Below, piece by piece: positions 18,765 through 61,419 of a DNA stretch of 64,000 nucleotides. This DNA comes from Aotearoamyces nothofagi. Its lineage: Eukaryota; Ascomycota; Leotiomycetes; Leotiales; Tympanidaceae. Position 1 is the first letter of the stretch; each line of letters starts with the position of its first letter. The position numbers were made by a program, and so were the translations under genes. The DNA lies in the NCBI GenBank assembly GCA_015345905.1, contig JADDTR010000023.1, positions 372,001 to 436,000 of the forward strand, given 5' to 3'. The notes beneath the pieces were generated by a model. It saw nothing but the letters and a program-made list of their open reading frames with translations. It was not told the origin of the DNA and searched no databases.

Positions 18765-20232
18765 TCAGTCTAGACGCGCCATCATTTCCTCCTTTGGCAT
18801 TGGAGTAAAGTTGTCGATATCAAGTCCTCTTGCTGCTAATGTAGCTCTCATGTGCTGCGGCACTAGCCTATGGTTGAGCTGAGGGGCAATAGAGAGTTCT
18901 GAATGGTCAGCTTAGTAATTCTTCCGTGAGAACGAGACGAACTTACCATGACGTGAGAAGTCGAATAGGGCAGGGAGATCCTTGATTTGCCCATTAGGGT
19001 GACGTGAATCGGGGAGCCTGGTACTTGGGTCTCGGAGCTCGTCGAAGAACGGGTGTACCATAGCATCGATGGCGGACAAACGCTCAGTGGGCGTGTACTC
19101 CAACAGCCTTGAGATCAGTTCGATGGCGTTCGCGTCGGCCTTGCGGAACACCCTGTTGAACGGGTGAGGCTTGATCTGCGGGAACTTGTGCTCCATATAA
19201 TTGGGATTCATTGTTCGAATCTGGTCTCTCGTGGGTGTTCCCAAGACCTTGATGATCTCCACAAGCTGGTCGATGCCCGACTCGCCAGGGAAGAGAGGCT
19301 GGCCCAGCATCAGCTCAGCCATAACGCAGCCGGTCGACCATACATCTAAATGTGCAGATTAGCGTCGATTCCGTCAAACAAAGAGTGGGGCCGGGGATAA
19401 AGCTGTGCTCACCAATCTTCGTGGTATAGTTCGTAGCTCCAAATATCAGTTCTGGTGCTCTGTAGTAACGAGAACAGATGTAAGAGACGTTTGGCTCGTT
19501 CTCGACAAGAATCTTGGCGCTACCGAAATCGCAAAGTTTCAGGATGCCACTGCTGGGGTCCAATAATAGATTTTGCGGCTTGATATCACGGTGGCAGATG
19601 CCCTGGGAATGAATATATGCGAGCGCGCGGAAGAGTTGGTAGGTATAGAGTTTGACCTCGAGTATCGGCATGGTCGTCTTCATCTTGTTGAAGTATCTCG
19701 AGGCGCGGTAGACCGTCTCTGGAACGAATTCCTGCACGAGGTTTAGGTAGACCTCGTCCTTCTGTTGTGCGTCAGCAGCTGCCGTGTCCGACGTGATCTC
19801 TCGAGCGTCTCTCGAGCTTACCCGTTCGCCATTCGAGTAGTAGAAGGCCTTGAGCTCAACAATATTCGGGTGCCTGACGATGCGCATAATCTGCAGCTCA
19901 CGGTTCTATCGTCCGTCAGCCCCACCCACCCACAATGACAAGCAACACGGCATACCTTGAATCTCTTGTCCTGGAGCACGCGCTTAATCGCGGCATCTTC
20001 ACCTGACGGCGAGAGCTTTGTTTGAAACACCACCCCAAACGAACCGTTGCCCACGATCTTGCATTGGGTGTATTGCATATCCCGAGTCTCTCCCGTGACA
20101 CCGTCCTGGACCTTTTCCCGAATGACCTCTGCAGACGCACGTTAGCAGGCAGCGCAGACGACGGAGAGGGGCCGTGGTGCTCTTACCTCCCATCCTCAAG
20201 CTCGAGAATGCGGCGGGCCGATTTTGCGACAT
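18765..20232 (-). CDS. GSK3: Glycogen synthase kinase 3 family protein kinase
   Basis: Serine/threonine kinase of the GSK3/shaggy family (yeast Rim11/Mck1, S. pombe Skp1), acting in growth, stress and differentiation signalling. Six exons: 20187-20232, 19956-20128, 19822-19905, 19413-19761, 18947-19345 and 18765-18898, giving exactly 394 residues, the common filamentous-fungal size. Glycine loop [11 protein letters not shown] (41-51), catalytic lysine K64 (AAIKRV), HRDIKPQN with D160, DFG with D179, and the activation-loop tyrosine Y195 in [14 protein letters not shown], equivalent to human GSK3-beta Tyr216. The intron at 19762-19821 is 60 bp with no in-frame stop, so an unspliced mRNA would encode a 20-residue insert after NGER (residue 101). 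A roughly 10-kb non-coding region lies upstream. Confidence 0.96.
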
Positions 20233-21276
20233 CCTGAGCCCCAAACCAAGGTGGCTATCGCGAGCACGGCGGGGTGAAGTCGAGCAGGGTATCTAGGAGG
20301 ATGGTCGACGGCCTCGTGGAGTCCGTGATGGGCAATTGGACCTCGAATCAATTGAATGGCAGCGGGTGCGCAACGACTGGCCGGGCGTGGGTAACGTGAC
20401 AACGGGCGCCAAAGAGGGTGCTGTGTGCGTGCAGCGGGTTGCGGGTTGCGGGTTGCGGCCCAAGGGAGACGGAGGCGACAGAGGCGGGCGGAGGAGGTCG
20501 TGCTGGTTGTGGTGGAAAGAAGGGCGTAGGAGTATCGCGGATGGTTTGCGTGGTCGAAGTTGTGCACCACGATGCCGATATTGTGGAGTTGTTGGTGGAG
20601 TTTCGTTTGATGAAGTGAGGCAGGGTGATCCGCAGAGGGTGAGCGCAGTGGAAGTGACGAGGTAATGCCTACTAGGCCGAGCTTAGAGGCGACCCAAAAG
20701 GTTGGCTTGCTCACGCGCTCGGTTTGAGACTGACGAGCGGCTGGGACTACGGGACTACGGGGCTAAGCACAATTGGATTCGACGGCGAGACGAGGAGAGT
20801 GGGCTGGGGGGGGTGGTGCGGATTGGATGTTGGCTGCTGCGAGGGCCACGCACCAGCGAGCGTCGGGCGGCGGATTCCTGGGTGCGCTGGGCGCAGTGCA
20901 GTGCAGCGCAGTGCGGTGCGGTGCAGCGTACCGTGTGCACTGGGGCCATGCGCTGTGGGCCGGCGTTGACAGTGGGAGCAGTGGGTGCTGGGCTGGGCAG
21001 GGCAGGGCAGTACAGCGAGTGCAGTGAGGGTAGGGCAGGTAGGCAGGTCGCTGTGGGCGTTGGTGGGCGGTGCGGGCAGACAGCGACGGTGCAGGGCCTG
21101 CTGCAGCGTACAGAGAGTGCTGTAGGCTGTGGGCTGTAGGCTGTGGGCGGCAGAGACAGACCTGGGCGCGGGCGGGGAGGGGAAGGGCAGGCAGGCTGGG
21201 AGGGGAGGGGTCTCAGTGCTGCGGCAGCGCGGCCAACAGGTGAGCGAGCGTGAGAGACAGACAGACAGGAAGACGG

Positions 21277-21316
21277 GCAGGCAGGCAGGCAGGCAGGCAG
21301 GCTGGCAGGCAGGCCC
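21277..21316. repeat. GGCA microsatellite
   Basis: About nine tandem GGCA units with one interruption (gctggcagg). A run of the complementary unit lies 2.8 kb away at 24090-24126. Confidence 0.85.
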
Positions 21317-24089
21317 GAGGAACTTGGCCGGCGACGGACGTCCTAGGTAATACTATAACGCACCTAGGTCTGTCTACCGTAGTGGGCGTCTCTGCTACTC
21401 TGCTACTCTGCTACTCTGCCGCTGGAATGCGTGCAGGCGGGCTGGGACGGGCCTGGACGAGCCCGCACAAGCCTGTAGCTTAGCCTGTGGCTCGCACAGC
21501 AAGTAGCAAGTAGCAAGTAAGTAGCCTGGCGGTTGCTCCTGTACTGGCGGTCTGGCTTGGAGCCCCGAGCCTGGACGGCGTGCCTGGCTGCAAGTCGCTT
21601 AGTGCCCTAGGGCCAGCGACTGACGCTGCGCTCCCTCGTCTGCGGATGCAGGGCGGTGGTCCTGCGCTGGAGTACCGTCGCTGCTCTTGTTCTGCACGGG
21701 GCAGTGGACAGGACAGACCGGCGCAGGGAGAGCGACCGGACGGAGATGGGTGGCTGGGTACGGGGCGGGGGAGGGGCAGAGGGGGAGAGGGCGCAGGTAG
21801 CAGGTAGCAGGTAGCAGGTAGCAGGCAGGCCGGCCGGTAGAATCTGCGAGGTGAGAGGGACGCACTGCACTGTACGGGAATGGATTTGTACAGTACAATG
21901 GGAGAGGCCGAGGTGGAGATCTCCGGACGGTGCAGCGGCGGTGATCTGATCGGATCTGATTTGATTGTTGCTGGACGTATGTTCGTTTCGAGACAGGAAG
22001 CCCCCCGACCTCACCGGAAGCGTCTTAAGCTTTCGCGAGCTGCCCGGCCAGGACGGCGTGGCTGGGCAGGAGGGAGGGGAGGGAGAGCCGGGAGGGTTTG
22101 GAAAAGCAAGGCATTCCGGCATGGTCAGTCAGGAGCCCGGCAGAGGCGCGTCTGAGTAAGTGGCATATAGGGTAGGAGGCATGGCGGCGCAGTTTGGAGT
22201 CGATCATCATGAGACCCAAACCCCAACCCCAAATGGCAGACCCGACCTGCCCGCCCGCCTGCCCGCCTGCCTCCCCGGCCCCCGGCCCCCCGGCCCCCGT
22301 CCGCCCTCCGTCCTCCGCCCTCCCCCTCGCCCCTCCCTCCGCGGCGGCCTAAGGTATCCATCCACGGTCTCCAAGGCATCCACTCCTGCCACTGCTGCCA
22401 CTCCAGCCCAGCCCAGCCGCGCCCGCGCCCGCATGGTCGAAAACCGGGACTGCCGTAATGGCGAATGGGCATCTATGGGCGACGTGACGCCATGGCGGGC
22501 GCCGCGGACCTGGCGGCCATTGGTCGCCCGGCGAGGCGAGGGCGTACGCGAGGATAAGCTTCGCCGGAGCATCCAGATCAGCCTCGATCAGCTCTACCTT
22601 ATGCTGTCATGGTCCGTAGCGCTGCGCTGCGCTGCGCTGCGTCACTGGGCTGCGGGCAACGGACGGGAACTATGGAGCTGTAAGGCTACAGCAGACGACA
22701 GCACTGGGAGCCGGACGGGATATAAGTAGTTGCAGGATCCCCAGGTATACTGTACGATACGCAATATATAAGGTAGGCGTACATACGAAAGAGATACCCG
22801 TGCAGAGTCTGAACGACTATGCTGGCGAGTACGGTCCGGCTTGCTGTTGATCCCGTAGTATCCTGATGGCACCGTTTGATAGCTCTTCTTCCTCCGGCTT
22901 TGCCATTGTTTACTTTCACATGCTGCTGTTGGGCCCGTGGAGAGACTTTGATGCGGCTTCCGTCGCCTCACTTGTGCCGTCAACGCGTGATATCTGTTGA
23001 GCACGGTACTCCGGGCTAGTAAGCCTCAATATTTGCTGCTGCTGCTACTACTACGATAGCCTTTTCTGCATCATGCAGCGCGGAGTGCAGGCACGGGATA
23101 CATCATACTACTGTACGGTGCAATGTTAAAAGCTGCAGGAGCATGTATGTAAGACCCCTTTCCCAGGACCCTCGGACTCCCAGGCGTCGCCGGTCAAAAG
23201 AAAACATGAGGCCATTCCGCCTCGTGAGGTGTTGAGTGAGCTGCCGGTTGCCAGTTGCCAGTTGCCAGTTGCGAGTATGCTCGTCCATATGCCCACATGC
23301 CTGAAAGGAAAGTGCGGCATTACAAGGGAGGCCAGGAGGCACGGTACATACAGTACTTGCTGTTCTGTACCTTACTCGGAAGGCTGGTACCAAGCACAGA
23401 CGCCTGGGTGATCACGTAGCCTTGCACTATATGCGATGCACGGAAAGCCTAAAGGGCTAGGTGAGTAGGGCGCTTTGATACAGTGCTCAAGGCAACCTGT
23501 CTATTGCAGCAGCAAGGCGGGTGGGAGGTGAGATGTGAGATGTAGGAAGGGGGGCTGCTGGGATGCAGGATCCAAGATGGACTGTTCCGAGTAAGGTGCG
23601 CGTACTGGTGCTGTACGTAGGTACGGTGGGTACCGTACCTGTTCAACGTTCCTGTACTGTATCGGCAATGTATACAGTATATATATATATATATGCATGC
23701 GTCTCCTACAGGCTCGTCTACCTCATGCAACCGCGTGGCATCTTTCCAGGCACAGGCCAACCGACCCAGCGGCCACCGCCCACGTCGCACCCAACCTGGC
23801 CATGCTTCGAGCGACGCGCAGAACGACAGGTCAGGGCCCGTCCGTGCCGCCATGGCGAGGACCGTTGGGTTGGCCCCAGCACTCGTCAGGTCATCACGGG
23901 GACACCTCAGGAGGAGGCATGCATACACACTCACCGTACCGTACCGCACGCATCCTCATACATAGCCAGACGGCGGTGGCGCGAGAAGATAACAGTACAG
24001 TACAGTACAGTAGATTCACCCGACGCCCTCGCACCCGCTGCCAGCCAGGATGGGCATCGGGAGTCACAGTAGTCAGATTGGACCGCGGG

Positions 24090-30289: not shown

Positions 30290-30931
30290 CTACTCGGATT
30301 TCGCTGCCTCATCCCTCAACCCGTTGATGATCGTGTCGAGCGCATCCATATCCGCCGCATCGACCTTGCCGTGGTCGCGCCCTCTCTTCTCTAGCTCCTG
30401 CACAAACTCGTCCGTCGCGGCCTGGTAGTTCCTGACGGCCGAGCTCAGCGCGTAGATGGCCTTCCTCTTGACGTCCTTGCTCTCCTCGCCCCGCGTCGCG
30501 AGCTCCGTCAGCAGCGGGATCGCCCCCTGCGCCAGACACCTCTCCTGGCTCTTCTCGTTATTCTGCACCGCCGTGCCGACGCACCACGCCGCCATCTTGC
30601 GGATCTCGGCCGCCTCGTGGCTCAGGCAGCTCAGCAGCGGCGTCCAGAGCCCGAGCGGCGCAAGGTTGTTGGCGTTGTCGAGGTTCTCGATCAGCTGCTC
30701 GAAGTTGTCGAACGCAACCAGCTTGTCCTCGACGCTGATCTCGGGGTCCGGCGAGACGATTGCGGACATGGATTCTTTCATCAGGTCGGCGTCGCTGGGG
30801 CCGCCCATCAGCGCCGCGAGGGCCTCGGCGTTCAGACCGCGGTTGCGCGGGGGCGCGGCCTCGGGGTCGTTTTCTGTGCTGCTAGAGTTTTCCACGCTCC
30901 ATTTGAGGAGCTCGTTTATGCCTCTGTCCAT
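30290..30931 (-). CDS. FES1: Hsp70 nucleotide exchange factor Fes1/HspBP1
   Basis: Armadillo-repeat co-chaperone that releases ADP from cytosolic Hsp70 and so promotes substrate release and turnover. Single exon, 213 residues, ATG at 30929-30931. The N-terminus MDRGINELLKWSVENSS is the family signature; the helical repeats follow, including IRKMAAWCVGTAVQNNEKSQ (about residues 110-130) and DVKRKAIYALSSAVRNYQAA (about 152-172). The C-terminus ends GLRDEAAKSE. Yeast Fes1 is about 290 residues, but 205-220 is usual in filamentous fungi. Codons are strongly G/C-ending. The upstream side faces the actin gene. Confidence 0.95.
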   Translation of the reverse strand: MDRGINELLKWSVENSSSTENDPEAAPPRNRGLNAEALAALMGGPSDADLMKESMSAIVSPDPEISVEDKLVAFDNFEQLIENLDNANNLAPLGLWTPLLSCLSHEAAEIRKMAAWCVGTAVQNNEKSQERCLAQGAIPLLTELATRGEESKDVKRKAIYALSSAVRNYQAATDEFVQELEKRGRDHGKVDAADMDALDTIINGLRDEAAKSE

Positions 30932-32166: not shown

Positions 32167-33755
<1,589 letters not shown>

Positions 33756-34559
33756 ACGTAATCCTAATGGTTGGGGCGCATGCCACGAACTTCACGAATA
33801 TGATCAAGACGAAGATTCGAGCAAGCCAGGCGTTCCCAGTGGCTTGGCTCAGCCACGTGTTTACATTCTGAAAAGTTCTGGTTGCTGTCGTACAGGGTGG
33901 TGGTTTCTATCGATGAATGGTTGGCTTGTGTTTAGCTGGTTGCTTACTTGGAGGAGTAGCAACTCCGCGATGGATCGTACAACTTTTTCAATGGTTCATT
34001 CATGTTTTGAGGGCCTCATTCATAGCGCGAAGATGTTTGTAGAAAATTCAAATAAAAAGGTCTACTAGAAGTTCAACTGTGATGATTGATTGGCAAGGCA
34101 TTTTATTGAATAGAGTTCTCCCGTAATCGTGCCTATTACAAGGGACCCGTTACCCAATGAAAGACTTAATTCGTGGCGTACCAAGGGAATTTCGAGGCCC
34201 TTGGTCGCTGTATAGTGTGCAATTAGCTGAATCTAGAGTCAATCTCCGATGCTGAACACAGACGTCAAATAGCGAGGCAATCGCACCCACGTGTATCCAG
34301 CACGTGTTGACCGCGAAGGGCCCGACATGGATAATAAATGTTGCCCAGCCACGTTTCCGTGTATATGCACGTAAAGGTCCCACTTTCGTAACTTGGACAC
34401 CGACGTACCTTACCTTATCTCTGATTATGGATCAGACTCGATATTTGGAGATGTAGGTTTGAAAGTCTATATATGTAAGGTATGTAGTCCATGCTCTGGA
34501 AAGATGGGCCTCCAGCACTAGTCTCTCTCAATCGCAGATTGTTTTCCCCCATAGCCCTA
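33756..34559. other. Actin 3' flank and upstream region of the acid phosphatase
   Basis: The first 320 bp look like actin 3' UTR; an AATAAAA near 34050 could be a polyadenylation signal. The remainder should hold the phosphatase promoter. No gene is seen. Confidence 0.6.
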
Positions 34560-36458
34560 ATGGCAGTCTCTTGGTTACTCAGACTTGCTTGTGTCTCTAT
34601 TTCCATTGCAAGCTCTGTGGATGCTCAGACTCTCAATCCAACTAACGATATAAATTTACCAGCAAGCGCGTCGGCATCAAACCCTCTTGAATGGGTCGGT
34701 GCGAACGGACCTTGGTTTGCTGGTAAGAATTATAAGGGGATAATTGCAGGCTGTTATTGATGTATTCTAGGCCCTAATGCCCACGGCATATCAAGCGATG
34801 TACCAGAGGGATGCACCGTTGAGCAGGCGGCGTACATGGTGAGGCACGGAAGCAGATACCCAGATACAAGCGCCTGGAATCAGTGGGTTGCTCTTCAAAC
34901 GAAGGTATGCTATTGAATTTTGGTCAATGCAAGGATTGGGCATCACTAAATGAGCATTCATCAGATTCAAGATGCAGAGTTCACGGCCAGCGGCTCGTTA
35001 TCATTTATTTCCTCATGGCAACAACCATTGACGCGCCCGACCGTTCAGATGTCTCAAGAATCACTCACTGGTTACAAGGAGAGCTATGATCTCGGCTATA
35101 CCCTACGTTTGAGATATCCTAGCTTCTATGCAGAAGGTTCCCACTTCCTGGCTTGGGCGAATCTGTATGCTCGTGTTGTACAGACAGCGCGTATGTTCGT
35201 CAGAGGATACTTGGGACCGAACTCGGACACTCTTGGGACCGTCATCTCTGTTAATTCTACAGGCTGGCCTGAATCGCTGGGCGACTCTTTGTCCCCGTCT
35301 GATCTATGCCCCGCCTTCGTCGACGGCAATGGAGGTACAGAAGCTACTTCGTGGGATGCAATATATCTGCCACCAATCACGACTCGCCTTAATGCCCTTA
35401 TAACCGGAAATCTCACTTTCACAGACAGTGACGTATCCATCATGCCATATCTCTGCGGCTTCGAAAGTCAGATCCTTGGTCAACTGTCCTCATGGTGTGG
35501 AGTCTTCACCGATGAGGAGTTGAAAGATTATGAATATCGTCAGGATCTTCGATACTACTATGGAATGGGTCCCGGAACTGGCCTTCCCCAGACGATGATG
35601 TTGCCATTTGTCAACAGCACTTTGGGATTACTGGCGCAGGGTCCAGGTGTCCTGGGCAAGTATGCGAATGGATCAACGTACACGCTACCAAATTTAATCA
35701 TGGCTTTCATCAATGATGGCCAGATTGCAGAGGTTGCTGCGTCCCTTGGCATTTTTGATGATCAGGCCGCTTTGTCTGGAACCGAAAGACCGGATAATTG
35801 GACTTATGTTGCATCGCACTTCGTGTCAATGCGTGGTACTGTTGCTTTGGAGAGATTGAACTGTATCGTTACACCTGCCATCAGCACTACCTCGTCTTCA
35901 TCTGTTACATCTGCTACATCGACAAGGTCGAGTCATTCTACTTCGACAACCTTGATCACGTCCACAAAGAGTTCATCTGTCATCTCTTCAAAGACTTCCA
36001 CCAGCTCGGCCATTCCAATTGCCACGAGCAAAGACGGTAGGTGCGACGAACATACATCCTGTCACGGTAGTAGATTTGGCGACTGCTGCTCTCTATGGGG
36101 CTGGTGCGGTTCAAACCCTGAATATTGTGATCCAAATTGCACGTGCGGCGACGATAGCAGTGGAAACGACAATCACAACCATCGCCGCGCCCTGAACTTC
36201 ACTTCCACCTCCACCAACCAGACATATATCCGAATCAGACTGAACGACGCCGTCTATCCAGTTACAGTATGCCAGGATGGGCCAGGAGGAAGCTGTCTGT
36301 TGAGCAAATATGTAGGTATTATTTCCGACAAGTACGCAGCTACAGGAAACTGGCATGATAACTGCAATGTTACAAATCCCGAAAGTCCAACGCAGGTGCT
36401 TGGGGCGAGCTTTTTCACGGATTTAAGCTTGCCGTGGTTAGCAAATGTGACGCCATAG
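34560..36458 (+). CDS. Secreted histidine acid phosphatase with an internal CBM18 chitin-binding domain
   Basis: Exons 34560-34722, 34771-34904 and 34965-36458 give 596 residues. I chose the ATG at 34560 because it opens a signal peptide (MAVSWLLRLACVSISIASSV, cleavage near DAQ); an in-frame ATG at 34491 would bury it. The catalytic motif MVRHGSRYP puts the nucleophile at H80. The usual second motif HD is FINDGQI here (N349, D350). After VASHFVSMRGTVALERLNC (residue 399) comes a Ser/Thr linker (about 401-455). Next is a Cys-rich CBM18/hevein-like module (about 456-495) with the spaced motif GDCCSLWGWCGSNPEYC. The final phosphatase strand YIRIRLNDAVYPVTVC (520-) and CNVTNPESP follow. The module is therefore nested within the phosphatase. 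Several N-glycosylation sequons are present. The likely role is phosphate scavenging at a chitin-containing wall; substrate unknown. Confidence 0.9.
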
Positions 36459-37233
36459 GGGAATAGAAAGGTAGAAAGTTTTGTAGTTTGATAGAGAGGT
36501 TTATTATATATATACTGGATTAAAAAGCCGGCGCTGTAGGCGCCGCAGAGTATGAAGATGTAAATGTTATAACTTAAATGTAAGGTTCAAACTCGTGATT
36601 CACCGGAGCTGCATGTACGTGATATGGATTTTATACACCGAAGGCAAAAGCTTCACTTTTAAACAGGAACAACAGCAACAGCAGTGGCCTCCTATACTAT
36701 CTACCAACCTTTATAATAGAGGAAGGTAATATATTTGAAATGTAATCTATTCCTATATACAACTATTATTTAAATACTTTTTGAATTTTGAAGCTTGTCT
36801 AAACTTAATTATATAAATTGAAAAAAAAAAAAATTAGAAAACGCTCTTTATAGACATTATAGAGAGGCTTTGGAAATAACTTTTTTAGAAGAGCTAAATA
36901 CACTAGCCAGCTGTTAGTAGAATACCTTAACTATACATTTGAAGTACAAATTTATTTTATATATTACAGAATAATAAATATACATATAGTTAACGAATTG
37001 GCAATTTCACTAGGTGCTCCTAATTGGGGGGCAATATAAGGTTTTAACAGGAATCGAAGCTGTTAGATTTAACCTCATGGATCAGCATCAGGTTACGGCA
37101 TCTGCCGCACCTCAGTAAACCTCACGGTACAACCACGTTTCAGGAAGAACACCCAACTTGCTGCCAGCGTTACGAGCTACAGGACGAGTTACAGTGTACA
37201 TATCAACAATGCGACCGGCGACAACATAGTCTG
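36459..37233. other. AT-rich spacer before SEC8
   Basis: From about 36480 to 37010 the DNA is strongly A/T-rich with A and T homopolymers and many TATA-like words, unlike both neighbours. It may be a decayed repeat. The last 200 bp return to normal composition and should hold the SEC8 promoter. Confidence 0.5.
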
Positions 37234-40200
37234 ATGGCTCGAAATCCATACGCAGGTCTCAGCACCAGCGCAGACCCGTATACAAACGGGGCCAGCGTAA
37301 CCCCCCCCCCGGCTCCAAGCACTGACGACTACGACCCTTATGGTGATCGATATGGAACACCTTCCATAGCTCCTGGCGCTGGGCATGAAAGGCAGCAGGC
37401 TCGAAATGGTGGGTATGGAGGCTTTTACGAGAACGGCAATGGGTCGGCGCCGGCTGTCCAAGCGATCCCAGAACAGAGACAACCGCAGGACAGATATAAC
37501 AGATCTGGTACCAGACCATCAGATGAACCTGCACCCCAGAGATCCCCGAGAAGACCAGCTGGTGGAGACCCGAACAATGCGCGACGATACAGGCAAGAAC
37601 GGTCAGATGGGGACCCCGGCGATGCTGGTCGCGTTCAAGATTTTAGGAGACGCGACGACCGGCCGTACACCAATGGCAACGGAGAGACTCGCGATATTGT
37701 GGTCGGAAGGAGTCGAGGCCCTCGAACCGGTGGTGATGGGACAAGGCAAATTGAAGGTCAGTGAATACATAAGACATCTTACATATCAACCACAGTGTGG
37801 CGTCGCATTCTTCCCCATTGAAGTGGAGTAATTCCTCTCTCGAATTCAAACGTACACTTGACATGGCAAGATCCTTAGAGATGTTCAGAAAGAAGGCTAA
37901 CCCTCCGGTGTCGTCTGACTATATAGAAGTTCTCCAATACATCCAATCAGAATGGTCGTTCATGGCACAAGACCAGTGTGTACCGGTGCAGGTCGCACTA
38001 CAACTCATGGACTCAAGCTCCCTTGGCCGAGCACAACAATACGGACAATTCCAAGATACACACAAACAGTTGCAGCGGGCTCTCAAGGCGATTGTCAACG
38101 AGCATCATCAAGGGTTCAACAGCTCGATTGGCACATTTCACAAAATCCAGTCAAGCATACAGTCATCTCAGACTCGATTACGAGACCTGAAGAATTCATT
38201 GAGCCAGGCCAAAGTTGGCCTTTCGACAACAAGACCGGAATTGAAGGGACTAGCTGCTACCTCACAGAGCTATGATGAGATGCTCCAAGCGCTTTCACAA
38301 ATTGAGCAATTACGGCTGGTCACGGACAAACTTGAGGCGAGGATTTCGGAGAAACGATTCCTTACAGCTGTGGATGTTCTCCAAGATGCTCTGCGGATGA
38401 TGAGGAAGCCAGAAATGGATAATATCGGAGCCCTGAGCGACTTGAGAACATACCTTGCGAACCAGGAAACCAGTTTGACGGATATCCTCATTGAGGAACT
38501 ACATAGCCATCTATATCTTAAATCGCCATATTGCCAAGATCGATGGAAGGCCCATGCTAAAGAACAAAGTAATGGAGCAAGCCCTGAAGGGAAAGATATG
38601 GTTGCGCCGGTTGTACAGCCATTATACCAGTTCCTTGAAGATTTTGACTTGACAAAGCCTATGGTTGAGGATGCAGCGAGAAACCCTGAGGCAGACAGCT
38701 TCTACTATATTCAGCTGCTCGTGGAATCCCTGAATAAGATGGGACGGCTTGACGCCGCTGTAAATGCTATCGAGCAGAGATTGCCGGTTGAGCTCTTTAG
38801 AGTTGTCGATAAGACGAATGCTGAGGTTGATCAGCGTCACCCATCTTCACTACGGGGTGCAACGAGGAATTCAAAAGGCAACGTGGATCTTGGTATTGAT
38901 GAAACTGATATTCGTGCTGTTGTTTTATATGATCTTCTATGGACCCTATACGCCAAATTTGAAGCGATCGCTGAGGGCCACCGCGCTTTCCATGAGGTTG
39001 TCATTGGCATCACCAAACGAGAAAACATTCGAAATCCTGATGCTTTGACGGGAAGTTTTAAAGAACTCTGGATGCTTTATCAAAATGAGATCAGATCGCT
39101 GTTGCATGATTACCTTGCAACTGACAACAATATATATCGCATGAGCCAGTCAATAGAAACCAATGCACACGCATCTAGACGTGGTACACGCAACAAGGAT
39201 AAGAAGCTTTTCAGCTTGACAGATACGGATCCTAGGTCCATGGAAATGAGGACTGAACTCGAGGATCTCGAGGCTATTTTAAAATCATCTGTTCCTGGAC
39301 TAGTTTCTGATTCTAGAAGACCAACTGGCGTGGCATCTGATGATAAGACTCAGCAGACGGATGGCGCTGCTACAGGTCACAAGATGTTGATAGAACCAAG
39401 TGTGTTCAATATGGGCTTACTTCTACCTCCATCGCTGGCCTTCCTTCAAAGACTGAAAGACATCGTTCCTCCGAGACAGGATATCAAGACTAGTACTTTG
39501 ACGTCTTTCCTAGATGACTTTCTTGTCAACGTCTTTCTGCCGCAGCTCGATGAAACATTGGTCAAACTCAGTTCCCAGGTATTTGAGGCTTCTGATGCAT
39601 TCCAAGAAGACCCTCAGTGGGCACAAGTTGCCCGAAGGCCAGTATTCAGGGGCAGTGCTGCCTTTTTCAACTTGATCACCGCATTCTGCAGAATGCTTGA
39701 TACGATTCCTCATGATCAAGCGTTTACTCAACTTATCATTACACAAATGGTGGCATATTATGATAAATGCTGTGATTGGTACAAAGCACTTGTGGCACGT
39801 ACTCAAGACACAAGTTCATACGGTAGCCCCCTCAAAGCTTCTGCTACCTTTGCCAGTGGGCCTGGAGAGATTCACGATACAATGCAGAAGCTTTGGACTG
39901 CTGAAGAAGAGGATAATGATCTCATGGACAAAGAGATTGGCCTCTTGATACTCCAGACCAACGAGGTACCATTGAACCTTACCGATATCATCATGGATCG
40001 CAAGACTATCGCCTCATTATGCTTGCTATACACTAGTATGAAATGGTTAGCCAGCAAAGTTTACCAGCTGCGCCATATCACTCATCAGGACGCCGACTCT
40101 TCCCGCCGTAATACTTTGCGTGTGTCTCATAATCGACGCTGGACCCTACTGAATGCTCTCTCCAGAGGTAGCGATGAAAAGGCTCCGGTGTACTTGCCGA

Positions 40201-44023: not shown

Positions 44024-45855
44024 TCATATGTCCCGCCAGACATCTTTGTACTGCGCCCATTCCTTGAAGCCTGTAATAAGCGCGTAGTTAGAAAATTTAA
44101 ATGAGCTGTATGACCACAGTGAAGCTCACCAAGTTGTAGGAAGTCTTCTACTCTATGTCGTATGCAGTCGAGGAACATCCTTTTCATGCCCTGCTCCCTA
44201 AGAGTCTTTACACACGCATCGAGGAGCGGAACCATAAGAGTATCTTGTCTGCTTGCTAATTTATCACTGTTATTATATGGAATAAGACAAAATGGCAGGC
44301 TAGCTTCACAGACACTTACGTGAAATACAGATACAAGTTACTCCCCCAACATCATTACCAATCTGTCTCGGCCATGGCAGATCAGAAGCGACAGGGCTGC
44401 CAGATGAGGGTGTATAGGTTAGGGAAACTGCTATAATGGAGCTGTTTTCCACTGCTACCACTACATCTTTGGCGTGGGTATCATTTATTAACCTCGAGTA
44501 TTGATCGAACCATCCTACTGCTGTATGCTCGCGTTTCGTTTCTTCCTCGACAATTTCTAGCACTCGACTCATATCCTGCTGCGTGCATGAACGGAAGTTC
44601 ACAGCACCTGCACGGAATTTGTGACCGGCATTATCCCAATCTTCGAAATCGAGTATCAAATCGTAGACGATTAGTCCCTGTCCTGGATAGTGTCGATTTG
44701 TCTGCCAACCCCGGCGGGAGAACCATGCTTGGTCAAATTTACCGCTCTGAGGAGGCCCAGGAAGAATCCTAGGAAACGTGCTTCCAAGTTGGAGGCGTCT
44801 AACTCCCCTAGTCTTCTTTAGCTGATCCATTGCATGGTTATGTAGGCTCAAACCGATTCCTTGACCACGGTATTCAGACTGTACGAGTAATATAGCCAGC
44901 GACGCGATTAGCTTCTCGCCGGCTTGGTCAACATATGTGAGATAAGTCGCACAGAAGCCGAGGGGATATTGTTGAGTTGGGTGCTTCACGATGTAATGTC
45001 GAGCATAACCAGGCCGTCGTAGTAATGACGCCAGCGAATTTGGATGCATTCCAAACCGAGCATCCATACTTTGATTCCAAAGCTCTGCAATAACCTCGAT
45101 ATCTTGCGGCTCATCCCATTGCTCCACTTGCCATGGCCTAGCTGGCTGTCGTCCAGCCACTAACGGTCGTCCAATCGATGAAGTTACTGTGTTGTTATCT
45201 CCAAATATGAGCGACGCTGCCATCTCCAAAGTGGGCTTGGTATAATCTCGAGACTGAATAACGGTAGGAAAGTCGTCGGAAAGTCGCAAAAGGTCTGTAG
45301 AGCTGCAGGTTATTAGGATTAACAGTGGCGTTTCGTCTGCTAGAACCCTGGTAACATGAGCAGCTTCAACGTGTGGCATTTCCCCTGAAATTGTAGCATC
45401 GTTCATGACAAAAATGACCACTGAGGCCCTTTTGATGAATCCGACATGCGTGCTTGTAATACCATTCCTGTTAGTGTATGGCTGATGCCGAATTTTAGCA
45501 TGTCGCGATTCCAAAGCCCGTCCAAAGCATTCGAACGGATCCGAGGTGTCTTCCGGATCATTACTGACTGGAACGACAAGAGGGGTGAGAAGGACAATGA
45601 TATCTGAATATTGTAGATTTCTGACTACGGAAAGCCAGTTGGGTGAGTCGCGGATAAGGGTCACTGCTTGATCATTAGATCTTGGTAAATCTGCCGAGGT
45701 CCCATCCCGAGGGATGGGCTCTCCAAGAGCTTTGGCAGTGGCCCTAACGGGGGAGAGATAGATCAGTTCTAGCTTCCTTCTGGTAGAAGCAACAAGTCTC
45801 ACCTTGTCAAATTCTGCTCTTCAGCTGGATTTGCGCCATCGTCTCTGCTTGACAT
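44024..45855 (-). CDS. GH3 C-terminal-domain / tandem GNAT protein lacking the GH3 catalytic barrel
   Basis: Four exons: 45803-45855, 44320-45743, 44130-44255 and 44024-44070, giving 549 residues, all phases consistent. Residues about 45-225 (DQAVTLIRDSPNWLSVV, LQYSDIIVLLTPLVVPVSND, then FIKRASVVIFVMNDA) resemble the alpha/beta sandwich that follows the TIM barrel in fungal GH3 beta-N-acetylglucosaminidases. A GNAT acetyltransferase domain follows (WNQSMDARFGMHPNSL; acetyl-CoA loop SEYRGQGIGLSLH). A second, weaker GNAT repeat ends GFKEWAQYKDVWRDI; its acetyl-CoA loop (SPSRQDTLM) has lost the R-x-x-G-x-G pattern. GH3 enzymes with a C-terminal GNAT region are known in fungi. Here the barrel is absent: the frame is closed by a stop about 75 bp before the ATG, and no barrel motif appears upstream. 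It may act as an acetyltransferase or be a degenerating copy. Confidence 0.75.
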
Positions 45856-56310: not shown

Positions 56311-58089
56311 TCAGATCTCGATCGTCTTCATACCACTGTCGTCTTCAACTGTAGCTTGTTTCTTCGCGTTACCATTTACTAGACCAAGTCCCTTGTTGCC
56401 TTCAGCTGTTCTCGAGTTCTCCTTGTCGTCGTCATCCAATGCGATAGGGCTAAGAAGATTCTCAAGATTCTTTGTCTGCTTGGGTTCTTCGTCACTCGGA
56501 CGTGGCGTCGACACCTCGATTAGTTTGCTGTTCACGTTCGAGAGATCCTTTGTATGGACGGCGATTGGGGTTGGTGTCTCTTCAGTAACCTTGGCCAAAG
56601 GACTCGATTTGCCATATCCTGGCCTGTTTGGGCTAGAAACTGGCGAACTGCCACTGAAACGTTGCATTGATCTTCCTCGAGGTTCACCACCAATTTCTGC
56701 CGTTGGGCTAGCATATGGCGAGGCAACATGAGAGCCACCTGCGTTTGCTGAGCCGTTGGGTGGTGGTGCTGTAGTTGACCTTCTCTTTCCGCCTTTCCGG
56801 CCATACTTCTGGTCCACCCTCCATCTGAGGATGTCCAGGTAAGCAGGTTCGACATGGGAATTCTTGAATTCTCTCAACTTGAGCTCTGCAGTGTCTTCCT
56901 CCACGAAGCATTTCCCGCTGTTCATATCATCCGCAACCATAACCAAGAAAGCGGACCAGGATCTGGCCACAACATACTTGCAATCATAGTCCCGACCAAA
57001 GAGGATAACTTGACCCCATTTTCCAGCAGGGCCTGGAGCTAGATCCACAGCCAAATTGTTTCCGCCCCAATCTCTCGCTAACGGGATCCAAGAAGGATGA
57101 GCATAGACTTTCTGAATTGCATTTGGCGGTTGCGAATCCTGACGAGCAAGGAGATCCTGTCGCCAATGTGGGTTTTGTGATGACGGGCGAGCTTGTTTCG
57201 AAGACGATGCTGACGAGCTTCCACCCAGGGCTTTTGACGGAGTTGCCGGCTTGAAAGTGATGGGCTCGGTGAGGTATTCTTGGTTGACAACCTTCCAATT
57301 ATGCCACTCATGGACAATTTCCTCGCAGTCAAGCAGCATGCATCCGAAGATAATTCCCGTTGGTCTTCCACCCTGTTCCTGGCCATCGTGGACTTGCAAT
57401 GATTCGCGAACTTCCATGGGTAATGAGCAATCAAGCTGGTGCTCCAATTCATTCAAATCATTATTGGTACAACCCTCTCCAAGCTGGTCGAAAAGCTCTT
57501 CGTAATTCTCCTCGGCCCACTTGTCAATTCTTCGCCATGAATGGGAACATGGTGGAGGTGGTGGTAGACCTTCCTGAAATGCTTGTAACTGGATTTCGCC
57601 CGAGGCGACACTCTCAAATTCGTTTGTATTCTGTCGCTGAAGCGCTGCGCTTGACCTCATGCCAGGAGAGTATGGAGAGTTAGCACCTGGACTTTGCGGG
57701 AACATTGGCGATCCAAAGGTGCCGCCATTCAGTGCAGACATTGAGCCGCGCTCAGCATCTTCAAAGTAAGGGGAGGACACATCAACGTGAGACTCCGACG
57801 CATTAGTCGCGACAGAGGTAAGAGGCGCATGCCTGCTTTGCCCGAGTGGAACGTGCTGGCCCGTTCGATAGGGAGAATCGAAGTCGGAGTCTGTTGAAGT
57901 CTATATCAGCGGTGTGTCTACCTAGAAGGACAGGAAGAGGGTGATCTTACGGCGGTCATTACTTGTCAAACTGTGCCAGGCATTCCGGAATGCTTTTCCA
58001 ATGCCGAATCTGTTTGTAGATAGCACAAGTTAGCAATGTATACTGGTGCAGAAGGGCCACGGGGTTAAGGGTGAGGCTCACGCAGCCAT
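56311..58089 (-). CDS. SMI1: Cell wall assembly regulator Smi1/Knr4
   Basis: Intrinsically disordered hub with a SUKH/Smi1-Knr4 core, linking cell-integrity signalling to glucan synthesis. Exons are 58082-58089 (only 8 bp, ATGGCTGC), 57951-58009 and 56311-57890, giving 548 residues. The start MAAFGIGKAFRNAWHSL followed by TSNDRHSDFDSPYRTGQHVP matches fungal Knr4 N-termini, which supports the microexon. The core, about residues 135-370, includes SWRRIDKWAEENYEELFDQL, GIIFGCMLLDCEEIVHEWHN and VYAHPSWIPLARDWGGNNLA. It then shows VAVDLAP-type VDLAPGPAGKWGQVILFGRD and EPAYLDILRWRVDQKYGRK. N- and C-terminal arms are Ser/Pro-rich and probably unstructured. The last intron acceptor was chosen to keep the SPYRTG frame; two alternative AGs lie just upstream. 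Confidence 0.93.
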
Positions 58090-60521: not shown

Positions 60522-61419
60522 TCATAGTAGACCGAATAATATACCAAGGACCCCGATACCTCCGAGTGCGCTGTTCCAACTAGTCGCCTCCTTGGCAAGG
60601 CTTGAAGAGATGATTGATGGGTCTGCATCGGTGCTTGTTGCAGTGGCAGTACCGCTCGCGCCTAATGTCTCTGATGCCCCTGCTGTATCCGCTGTACCTG
60701 AGGCTGCGCCAGCCGCTGCTCTAGACGCCGTTCCAGTAGCAGTACCAGACGCTGCTCTAGACGCTGCTCCAGTAGCAGTAGCCGTACCGTTAACTGCAGC
60801 CGCATTGGTGACATTAAACCAGTTCCCAAACACAACCTTCACGCCGGCCCTACTCACCACATTGGTGGCATCAAACTGTGACCTATTACTTGCAAAGCTA
60901 GCGAGAATCTGAGATGCATTGCTCGCATTGGTAGTGTTCAACAGCAACTGCACATATCGGTGTGAGAACGGCGCTCGAGCAGGCGGGTTAGGCTGTATAT
61001 AACTGGCAAGAGCAGAGCCGTTGGAAGGGTTGACCAGTGCATAGACGGTCTTGCCAGCCAATTCAGATGTCGTGTTCGCAGAGACATAGCCGGCTTGCAA
61101 CCAGTGCAAGAGTTCGGATGTCTGGTTGCTGCCGCTCGCTGGAGGGGTGTCCGCGTCAACCATCATCAAGGCATAGCTCCCCAAGAGCCTTTCTTCCGTG
61201 CCCAGGCTCGGCACCGATGCAGTATCTGTGCGGTAGGTATTAGGAAACGTGCTTCATCCATCAGTGAGCCATACCATCTTTAGACAACACAATCCCATTC
61301 AGAGCTCCAACCGATCCAAATGCCACTGTGATATTCCGAGATGAGGTGGGCGAGAAGCCAGGAGGAGTGAAAGCGGTCACTGTACCGGACAGTGCCGTGA
61401 TGACCACCAATGTCTGCAT
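60522..61419 (-). CDS. Secreted PEBP-like (phosphatidylethanolamine-binding) protein with possible GPI anchor
   Basis: Exons 61275-61419 and 60522-61225 give 282 residues. The ATG at 61417-61419 opens a signal peptide (MQTLVVITALSGTVTAF). The PEBP fold is marked by YALMMVDADTPPA with LLHWLQAG shortly after, and by the later HRYVQLL strand. Numerous N-glycosylation sequons (NTTNASNAS and others) fit a secreted protein. Residues about 200-265 form an Ala/Thr/Gly/Ser-rich stalk, and the C-terminus ends in a hydrophobic stretch (GGIGVLGILFGLL). This is the arrangement expected of a GPI-anchored surface protein, though anchor attachment is inferred. The ligand is unknown. Confidence 0.85.

Follow-up and report, generated by a model that had tools for sequence, protein, structure and literature searches.

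The window, a 64,000-nucleotide stretch of contig JADDTR010000023.1 of Aotearoamyces nothofagi, includes a three-exon gene on the plus strand (34560 to 36458) located between actin and Sec8 genes. The exon boundaries were deduced from the reading frame and splice consensus sequences, and the joined exons would encode an open protein of 596 amino acids. The gene and the neighbouring genes assigned by gene-family matches are as follows.

30290 to 30931, minus strand: Fes1
32707 to 33504: actin (best PDB match 8a5d, 570.6 bits)
34560 to 34722, plus strand: exon 1, with the start, a signal-peptide-like N-terminus and the first phosphatase part; open in the spliced frame
34723 to 34770, plus strand: putative intron 1, 48 bp, GTAAGA...TTCTAG
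34771 to 34904, plus strand: exon 2, containing the catalytic RHGxRxP motif
34905 to 34964, plus strand: putative intron 2, 60 bp, GTATGC...CATCAG
34965 to 36458, plus strand: exon 3, with the remaining phosphatase, an insert, a closing tail and the stop codon
37797 to 40223: exocyst Sec8
56311 to 57780, minus strand: SMI1/KNR4

PDB entry 8a5d is from a filamentous ascomycete. Introns in the window are short. No tandem repeats were detected in 34000 to 38000, no Rfam match was obtained for the whole window at gathering thresholds, and an NCBIfam search gave no match. Elsewhere in the window, a minus-strand gene at 60522 to 61214 encodes a PEBP-like protein (PF01161) with a Ser/Thr/Ala/Gly-rich C-terminal part and a hydrophobic end. 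A 498-amino-acid frame at 44306 to 45802 (minus strand) matches GNAT acetyltransferase families (PF00583 and PF13508) at residues 261–339 only, the remainder having no Pfam match at an E value of 0.001. The block 20001 to 24000 has a GC content of 0.616, a GC skew of +0.143 that is the highest of 16 blocks, and many overlapping open frames.

The N-terminus of the 596-residue protein is hydrophobic (mean hydropathy 1.63 for residues 1–15 and 1.81 for residues 6–20), which is consistent with a signal peptide, and the protein has ten N-x-S/T sites. A continuous frame of 497 codons (34965 to 36458) spans the phosphatase body, the chitin-binding module and the tail. When the three forward frames were compared through 35865 to 36224, the coding frame alone was open throughout. 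The GC content at third codon positions (GC3) is 0.49 in the exon 3 part of the body and 0.47–0.48 in the first linker, the chitin-binding module and the tail.

The body of the protein belongs to the branch 2 histidine phosphatase family PF00328 (residues 70–406, 140.7 bits against a cut-off of 23.6, E 9.9e-41). Three segments of its active site could be located.

34842 to 34862, plus strand: RHGSRYP catalytic motif, residues 79–85, conserved, with the nucleophile His80
35172 to 35189, plus strand: RVVQTA, with the second conserved Arg of the phosphate pocket (R169), aligned with GRVIETA of 1QFX
35706 to 35723, plus strand: FINDGQ, at the site of the His-Asp proton-donor motif, here Asn349-Asp350

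R169 was taken as the equivalent of R156 in 1QFX, for which the pocket residues were those given in PMC5733987. FINDGQ corresponds to FAHDTN (His318-Asp319) of 1QFX, such that the Asp is kept and the His is replaced by Asn. In the HD motif, Asp is the proton donor and His is a member of the ligand pocket (PMC5733987). The preliminary description of this gene had named the product a histidine acid phosphatase; the superfamily is upheld by PF00328, but the Asn-Asp form of the second motif had been overlooked. As the His of the HD motif is replaced, the protein is placed in the superfamily and not among the canonical HD-type histidine acid phosphatases and phytases, and phosphatase catalysis is not to be assumed. 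Retention of the proton donor Asp350 makes activity likely nonetheless. On these residues, phosphatase activity appears likelier than its absence, though it may be lowered or altered by the Asn-Asp motif.

The body extends to the strand ERLNC, which is followed by a segment of different composition.

35850 to 35864, plus strand: ERLNC, the strand preceding the insert; C399 matches C368 of 1QFX
35865 to 36038, plus strand: linker 1, residues 400–457; 58 residues, 35 of them Ser or Thr
36039 to 36146, plus strand: CBM18/hevein-type module, residues 458–493, with eight Cys and the core CCSLWGWCGSNPEYC
36147 to 36224, plus strand: linker 2, residues 494–519; 26 residues, with His, Asn, Ser and Thr and the dibasic pair Arg506-Arg507
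36225 to 36455, plus strand: closing phosphatase segment, residues 520–596; 77 residues, with the YIRIRLND strand, the C535-C543 pair and C566

This organisation agrees with the preliminary description, in which phosphatase sequence ran to residue 399 (its last base is 35864) and about 55 Ser/Thr-rich residues preceded a CBM18-like Cys cluster. The span reported there, 35757 to 36404, corresponds to residues 364–579, and the insert proper covers approximately residues 400–509 (35865 to 36194).

The module has the Cys pattern C-x5-C-x7-CC-x5-C-x6-C-x3-C-x-C. When the segment was shuffled 100,000 times, this signature arose in 23 cases; with 50,000 shuffles of the entire protein it never arose. 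CC-x5-C-x6-C-x(3-5)-C occurs once in the window in all six frames. A 44-residue piece searched alone matched PF00187 with 28.4 bits (E 2e-6), just above the cut-off of 27.8, and the score fell below the cut-off in longer contexts (24.7, 21.5 and 21.2 bits for 198, 497 and 596 residues, respectively). The best solved relative is hevein (1hev, E 1.5e-4), to whose CCSQWGWCGSTDEYC segment CCSLWGWCGSNPEYC was aligned. Hevein contacts sugar through Ser19, Trp21, Trp23 and Tyr30, and all four positions are kept in the alignment. A single-sequence structural model of the piece had a pLDDT of 57 and gave 22 fold matches, none of which was significant (best E 0.16); the first 20 of the 22 matches were of the hevein type, as classed by title. 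In linker 2 (36147 to 36224), GC3 is 0.73 over 26 codons versus 0.47–0.49 in the adjoining parts of the exon, perhaps by chance in so short a stretch or because of a different origin.

When the tail region (36216 to 36455) was searched alone against the PDB set, only two fungal enzymes, both of the phosphatase family, were matched up to an E value of 10: 2GFI (residues 384–439, E 5.2e-7) and 1QFX (residues 378–424, E 2.2e-5). 2GFI is the phytase of Debaryomyces castellii. The tail thus matched two of the six phosphatase sequences found, and its HMMER score against PhyA, 0.4 bits, is not significant. It has no Pfam match when searched alone, because the PF00328 match already stops at residue 406. 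These matches bear out its earlier designation as the closing phosphatase segment.

On 1QFX, the body is matched as far as residue 371 and the tail from residue 378; on 2GFI, the body match stops at residue 318, short of the join between the two strands. In 1QFX the two strands flanking this join form a hairpin. Between C399 and Y520 there are 120 intervening residues versus ten in 1QFX (C368 to Y379), so that about 110 are inserted. The same join in Aspergillus niger PhyA comprises six residues (C391 to L398, in the sequence stretch printed in PMC5733987). The near adjacency of these strands in ordinary members of the family, as previously stated, holds in 1QFX and PhyA. In the MAFFT alignment with 1QFX, the difference appears as one gap of 110 columns, at residues 400–509, directly after the ERL-C strand. 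A single gap of this size and a join of 120 residues versus ten or six indicate that the module interrupts one homologous domain.

All 16 Cys residues after the signal-like segment could be assigned: eight match phosphatase disulfide positions and eight fit CBM18. The disulfides are 52-368, 109-453, 197-422, 206-279 and 394-402 in 1QFX and 8-17, 48-391, 192-442, 241-259 and 413-421 in PhyA (Table 1 of PMC5733987). In HMMER alignments, C69-C399, C214-C566 and C535-C543 match three of the five 1QFX pairs, and these three together with C263-C277 match four of the five PhyA pairs; two of the 1QFX disulfides and one of the PhyA disulfides are missing. HMMER aligned C214 with C197 of 1QFX; MAFFT did not, but placed it opposite a 2GFI Cys. 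The predicted C69-C399 disulfide would close just before the insert and the predicted C214-C566 disulfide would span it; a single fold should accordingly require both pieces. According to the available text of PMC7034034, removal of 'bridge number 2' abolished the activity of the A. ficuum phytase; this bridge would be 48-391.

Thus, the arrangement of a phosphatase fold with a CBM18-type module between two of its strands is confirmed at the level of sequence. An appended domain was rejected, since the gap in the alignment lies inside the phosphatase sequence and the tail, taken by itself, is part of a phosphatase. With the putative insert-spanning disulfide added to these, nesting of CBM18 within the phosphatase fold, as the preliminary description had it, is well supported. 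A structure prediction of the exon 3 protein (AlphaFold without an alignment, 497 residues, lacking residues 1–99) had a pLDDT of 32, too low to be of use. In the Pfam search that had been proposed, PF00328 was placed at residues 70–406 and PF00187, under its cut-off in the context of 596 residues, at residues 461–492. From these coordinates alone, with the tail blank, the protein would appear as an ordinary tandem fusion, and similar cases may therefore hide in annotation.

Candidate introns were sought in 35780 to 36420 with donors GTRNG, acceptors YAG and lengths of 40–450. The only consensus-like donor before CBM18, GTAGGT at 36037, causes a frameshift with the acceptors at 36157, 36160, 36221 and 36238; its in-frame acceptors begin at 36261, and their use would also remove the YIRIRLND strand. 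The weak donor GTGCGA at 36041 has in-frame acceptors at 36157, 36160 and 36238, the last of which cuts into the YIRIRLND strand. With the pairs 36041-36157 and 36041-36160, almost all of CBM18 would be lost while the tail stayed in frame, and hence an isoform without CBM18 is possible. A branch-like motif is absent from all listed pairs, which counts for little because it is also absent from one of the two putative introns of the gene. The CBM18 part as an intron was rejected, as none of the scanned pairs with a consensus-like donor removes the module and keeps the tail. After CBM18, the dibasic Arg506-Arg507 (36183 to 36188) is a possible Kex2-type site, cleavage at which would give two disulfide-linked chains.

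The gene product is probably a secreted, chitin-anchored branch 2 histidine phosphatase interrupted by a linker-CBM18-linker cassette. Other explanations were weighed against this one. The protein might be a pseudo-phosphatase: the His to Asn replacement would have weakened or abolished catalysis, leaving the fold as a scaffold and the product as a secreted lectin that binds chitin or masks it. FINDGQ in place of FAHDTN would fit this, as would a sugar-binding core very like that of hevein. A precedent is described in the available text of PMC10728186: in fleas, acid-phosphatase-like proteins that have neither catalytic His any longer have become binders. However, the RHGSRYP nucleophile motif, R169 and Asp350, the proton donor, are all retained. 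The three flea proteins also lack the nucleophile, and the same text warns that activity may survive the replacement of a catalytic residue. In MINPP phosphatases, HAE replaces HD and the enzymes are still active (PMC7762957, in the part available). We consider a pseudo-phosphatase unlikely. Alternatively, the cassette may be a near-neutral insertion with little effect. The join is a short connection between strands where a loop could be permissive, the long Ser/Thr-rich linkers suggest tolerance, and no relative that could show selection was found among the viral and prokaryotic collections searched. Yet all eight Cys and the Ser/Trp/Trp/Tyr contacts are intact, which points to selection for function, and we give a neutral origin little credence.

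The module might also be removable, either by alternative splicing or by Kex2-like cleavage at Arg506-Arg507, so that some forms would be anchored to chitin and others not, or the enzyme would consist of two chains joined by disulfides. The Arg-Arg pair in linker 2 and the two in-frame pairs that drop nearly all of CBM18 and keep the tail speak for it. Against it, these pairs rely on the weak GTGCGA donor, and the donor at 36037 leads either to a frameshift with the four acceptors up to 36238 or to deletion of YIRIRLND; removal seems quite improbable. An artefact of the gene model or assembly, with the CBM18 part being an intron or part of another gene, is very improbable. The model is drawn from DNA sequence, but one frame of 497 codons holds the body, CBM18 and the tail, the CBM18 part is protein-like, no scanned pair with a consensus-like donor excises it while keeping the tail, and 34000 to 38000 is without tandem repeats.

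In the favoured explanation, a secreted phosphatase anchored to chitin, a linker-CBM18-linker cassette of about 110 residues would interrupt the fold between the ERLNC and YIRIRLND strands. The two phosphatase pieces would fold together, secured by the disulfides of the family, including the one across the insert, with CBM18 carried on a doubly tethered arm that is probably O-glycosylated. CBM18 would hold the enzyme on chitin, either of its own fungal wall or nearby, and the enzyme so held would free phosphate from esters. The catalytic domain would thereby be displayed on chitin and phosphate release tied to wall binding. If this is true, phosphate scavenging would be kept on the fungal wall without a membrane anchor. 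The protein would also be a natural case of a tolerated domain insertion between strands, useful for enzyme display on chitin. A bolder and rather unlikely proposal is that a fungal lineage has a class of wall-displayed phosphatases with CBM18 slotted in mid-fold and held to chitin through two linkers. In such a class, the catalytic domain could respond directly to whether the module is bound to chitin, cut at Arg506-Arg507 or removed by splicing, and the Asn-Asp site would be tuned to a wall-associated substrate.

The preliminary description knew of no report of such nesting, and this fits the outcome of a search of one open-access literature collection, where no pairing of a phosphatase with CBM18 was found among the matches listed. 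A phosphatase with CBM18 is not described in the available parts of PMC5198202, PMC5118889, PMC4226871, PMC3569864, PMC8351168, PMC5573122, PMC4480369, PMC11457142 and PMC9390090. In a 2026 survey covering 3,058 sequences of fungal acid phosphatases, PF00328 is the only Pfam domain given for the seven HAP groups, which hold 2,655 sequences by summation of the table rows, and the main text mentions neither 'chitin' nor 'CBM' (PMC13390437); the table may list common domains only, and rare fusions could thus be missed. For the genome of a lichen fungus, one PF00328 and one PF00187 protein are recorded, the available text leaving unstated whether these are the same or separate (PMC8355462). In tblastn searches, the exon 3 and alignment A1 queries gave 4 and 21 pattern stretches, respectively, in viral contigs and 45 and 51 in prokaryotic genome contigs, with no relatives in either; as the collections were viral and prokaryotic, this is uninformative about fungi. 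Nested proteins of PF00328 and CBM18 may be common in protein databases.

Among known systems, the A. niger pH 2.5 acid phosphatase (phytase B, 1QFX) has the same fold family, 32% identity in the MAFFT alignment and the RHGxRxP motif. In the HMMER alignments, the positions of its C52-C368, C197-C422 and C394-C402 disulfides are occupied by Cys here, and the closing strand and tail are the same. It differs in being without the insert, in having an intact HD motif and in two extra disulfides. A. niger 3-phytase A (1IHP, 3K4P) belongs to the same family by sequence, and the Cys residues of four of its five disulfides are present. 2GFI, also of this family by sequence, gives the best match to the tail. 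There is no chitin-binding module in the matched parts of 1IHP, 3K4P and 2GFI, and the join in PhyA is six residues long. With hevein and CBM18 (PF00187), the module shares the eight Cys and the CCSxWGWCGSxxEYC core. The fungal partners of CBM18 named in the available literature are GH18 (often together with LysM), deacetylase and tyrosinase domains, or the module stands alone, whereas here the partner is a phosphatase. The CBM18 carriers in that literature are thus chitinases, chitin deacetylases, and tyrosinase-like or lectin-like proteins. The protein is an unusual arrangement of well-known parts.
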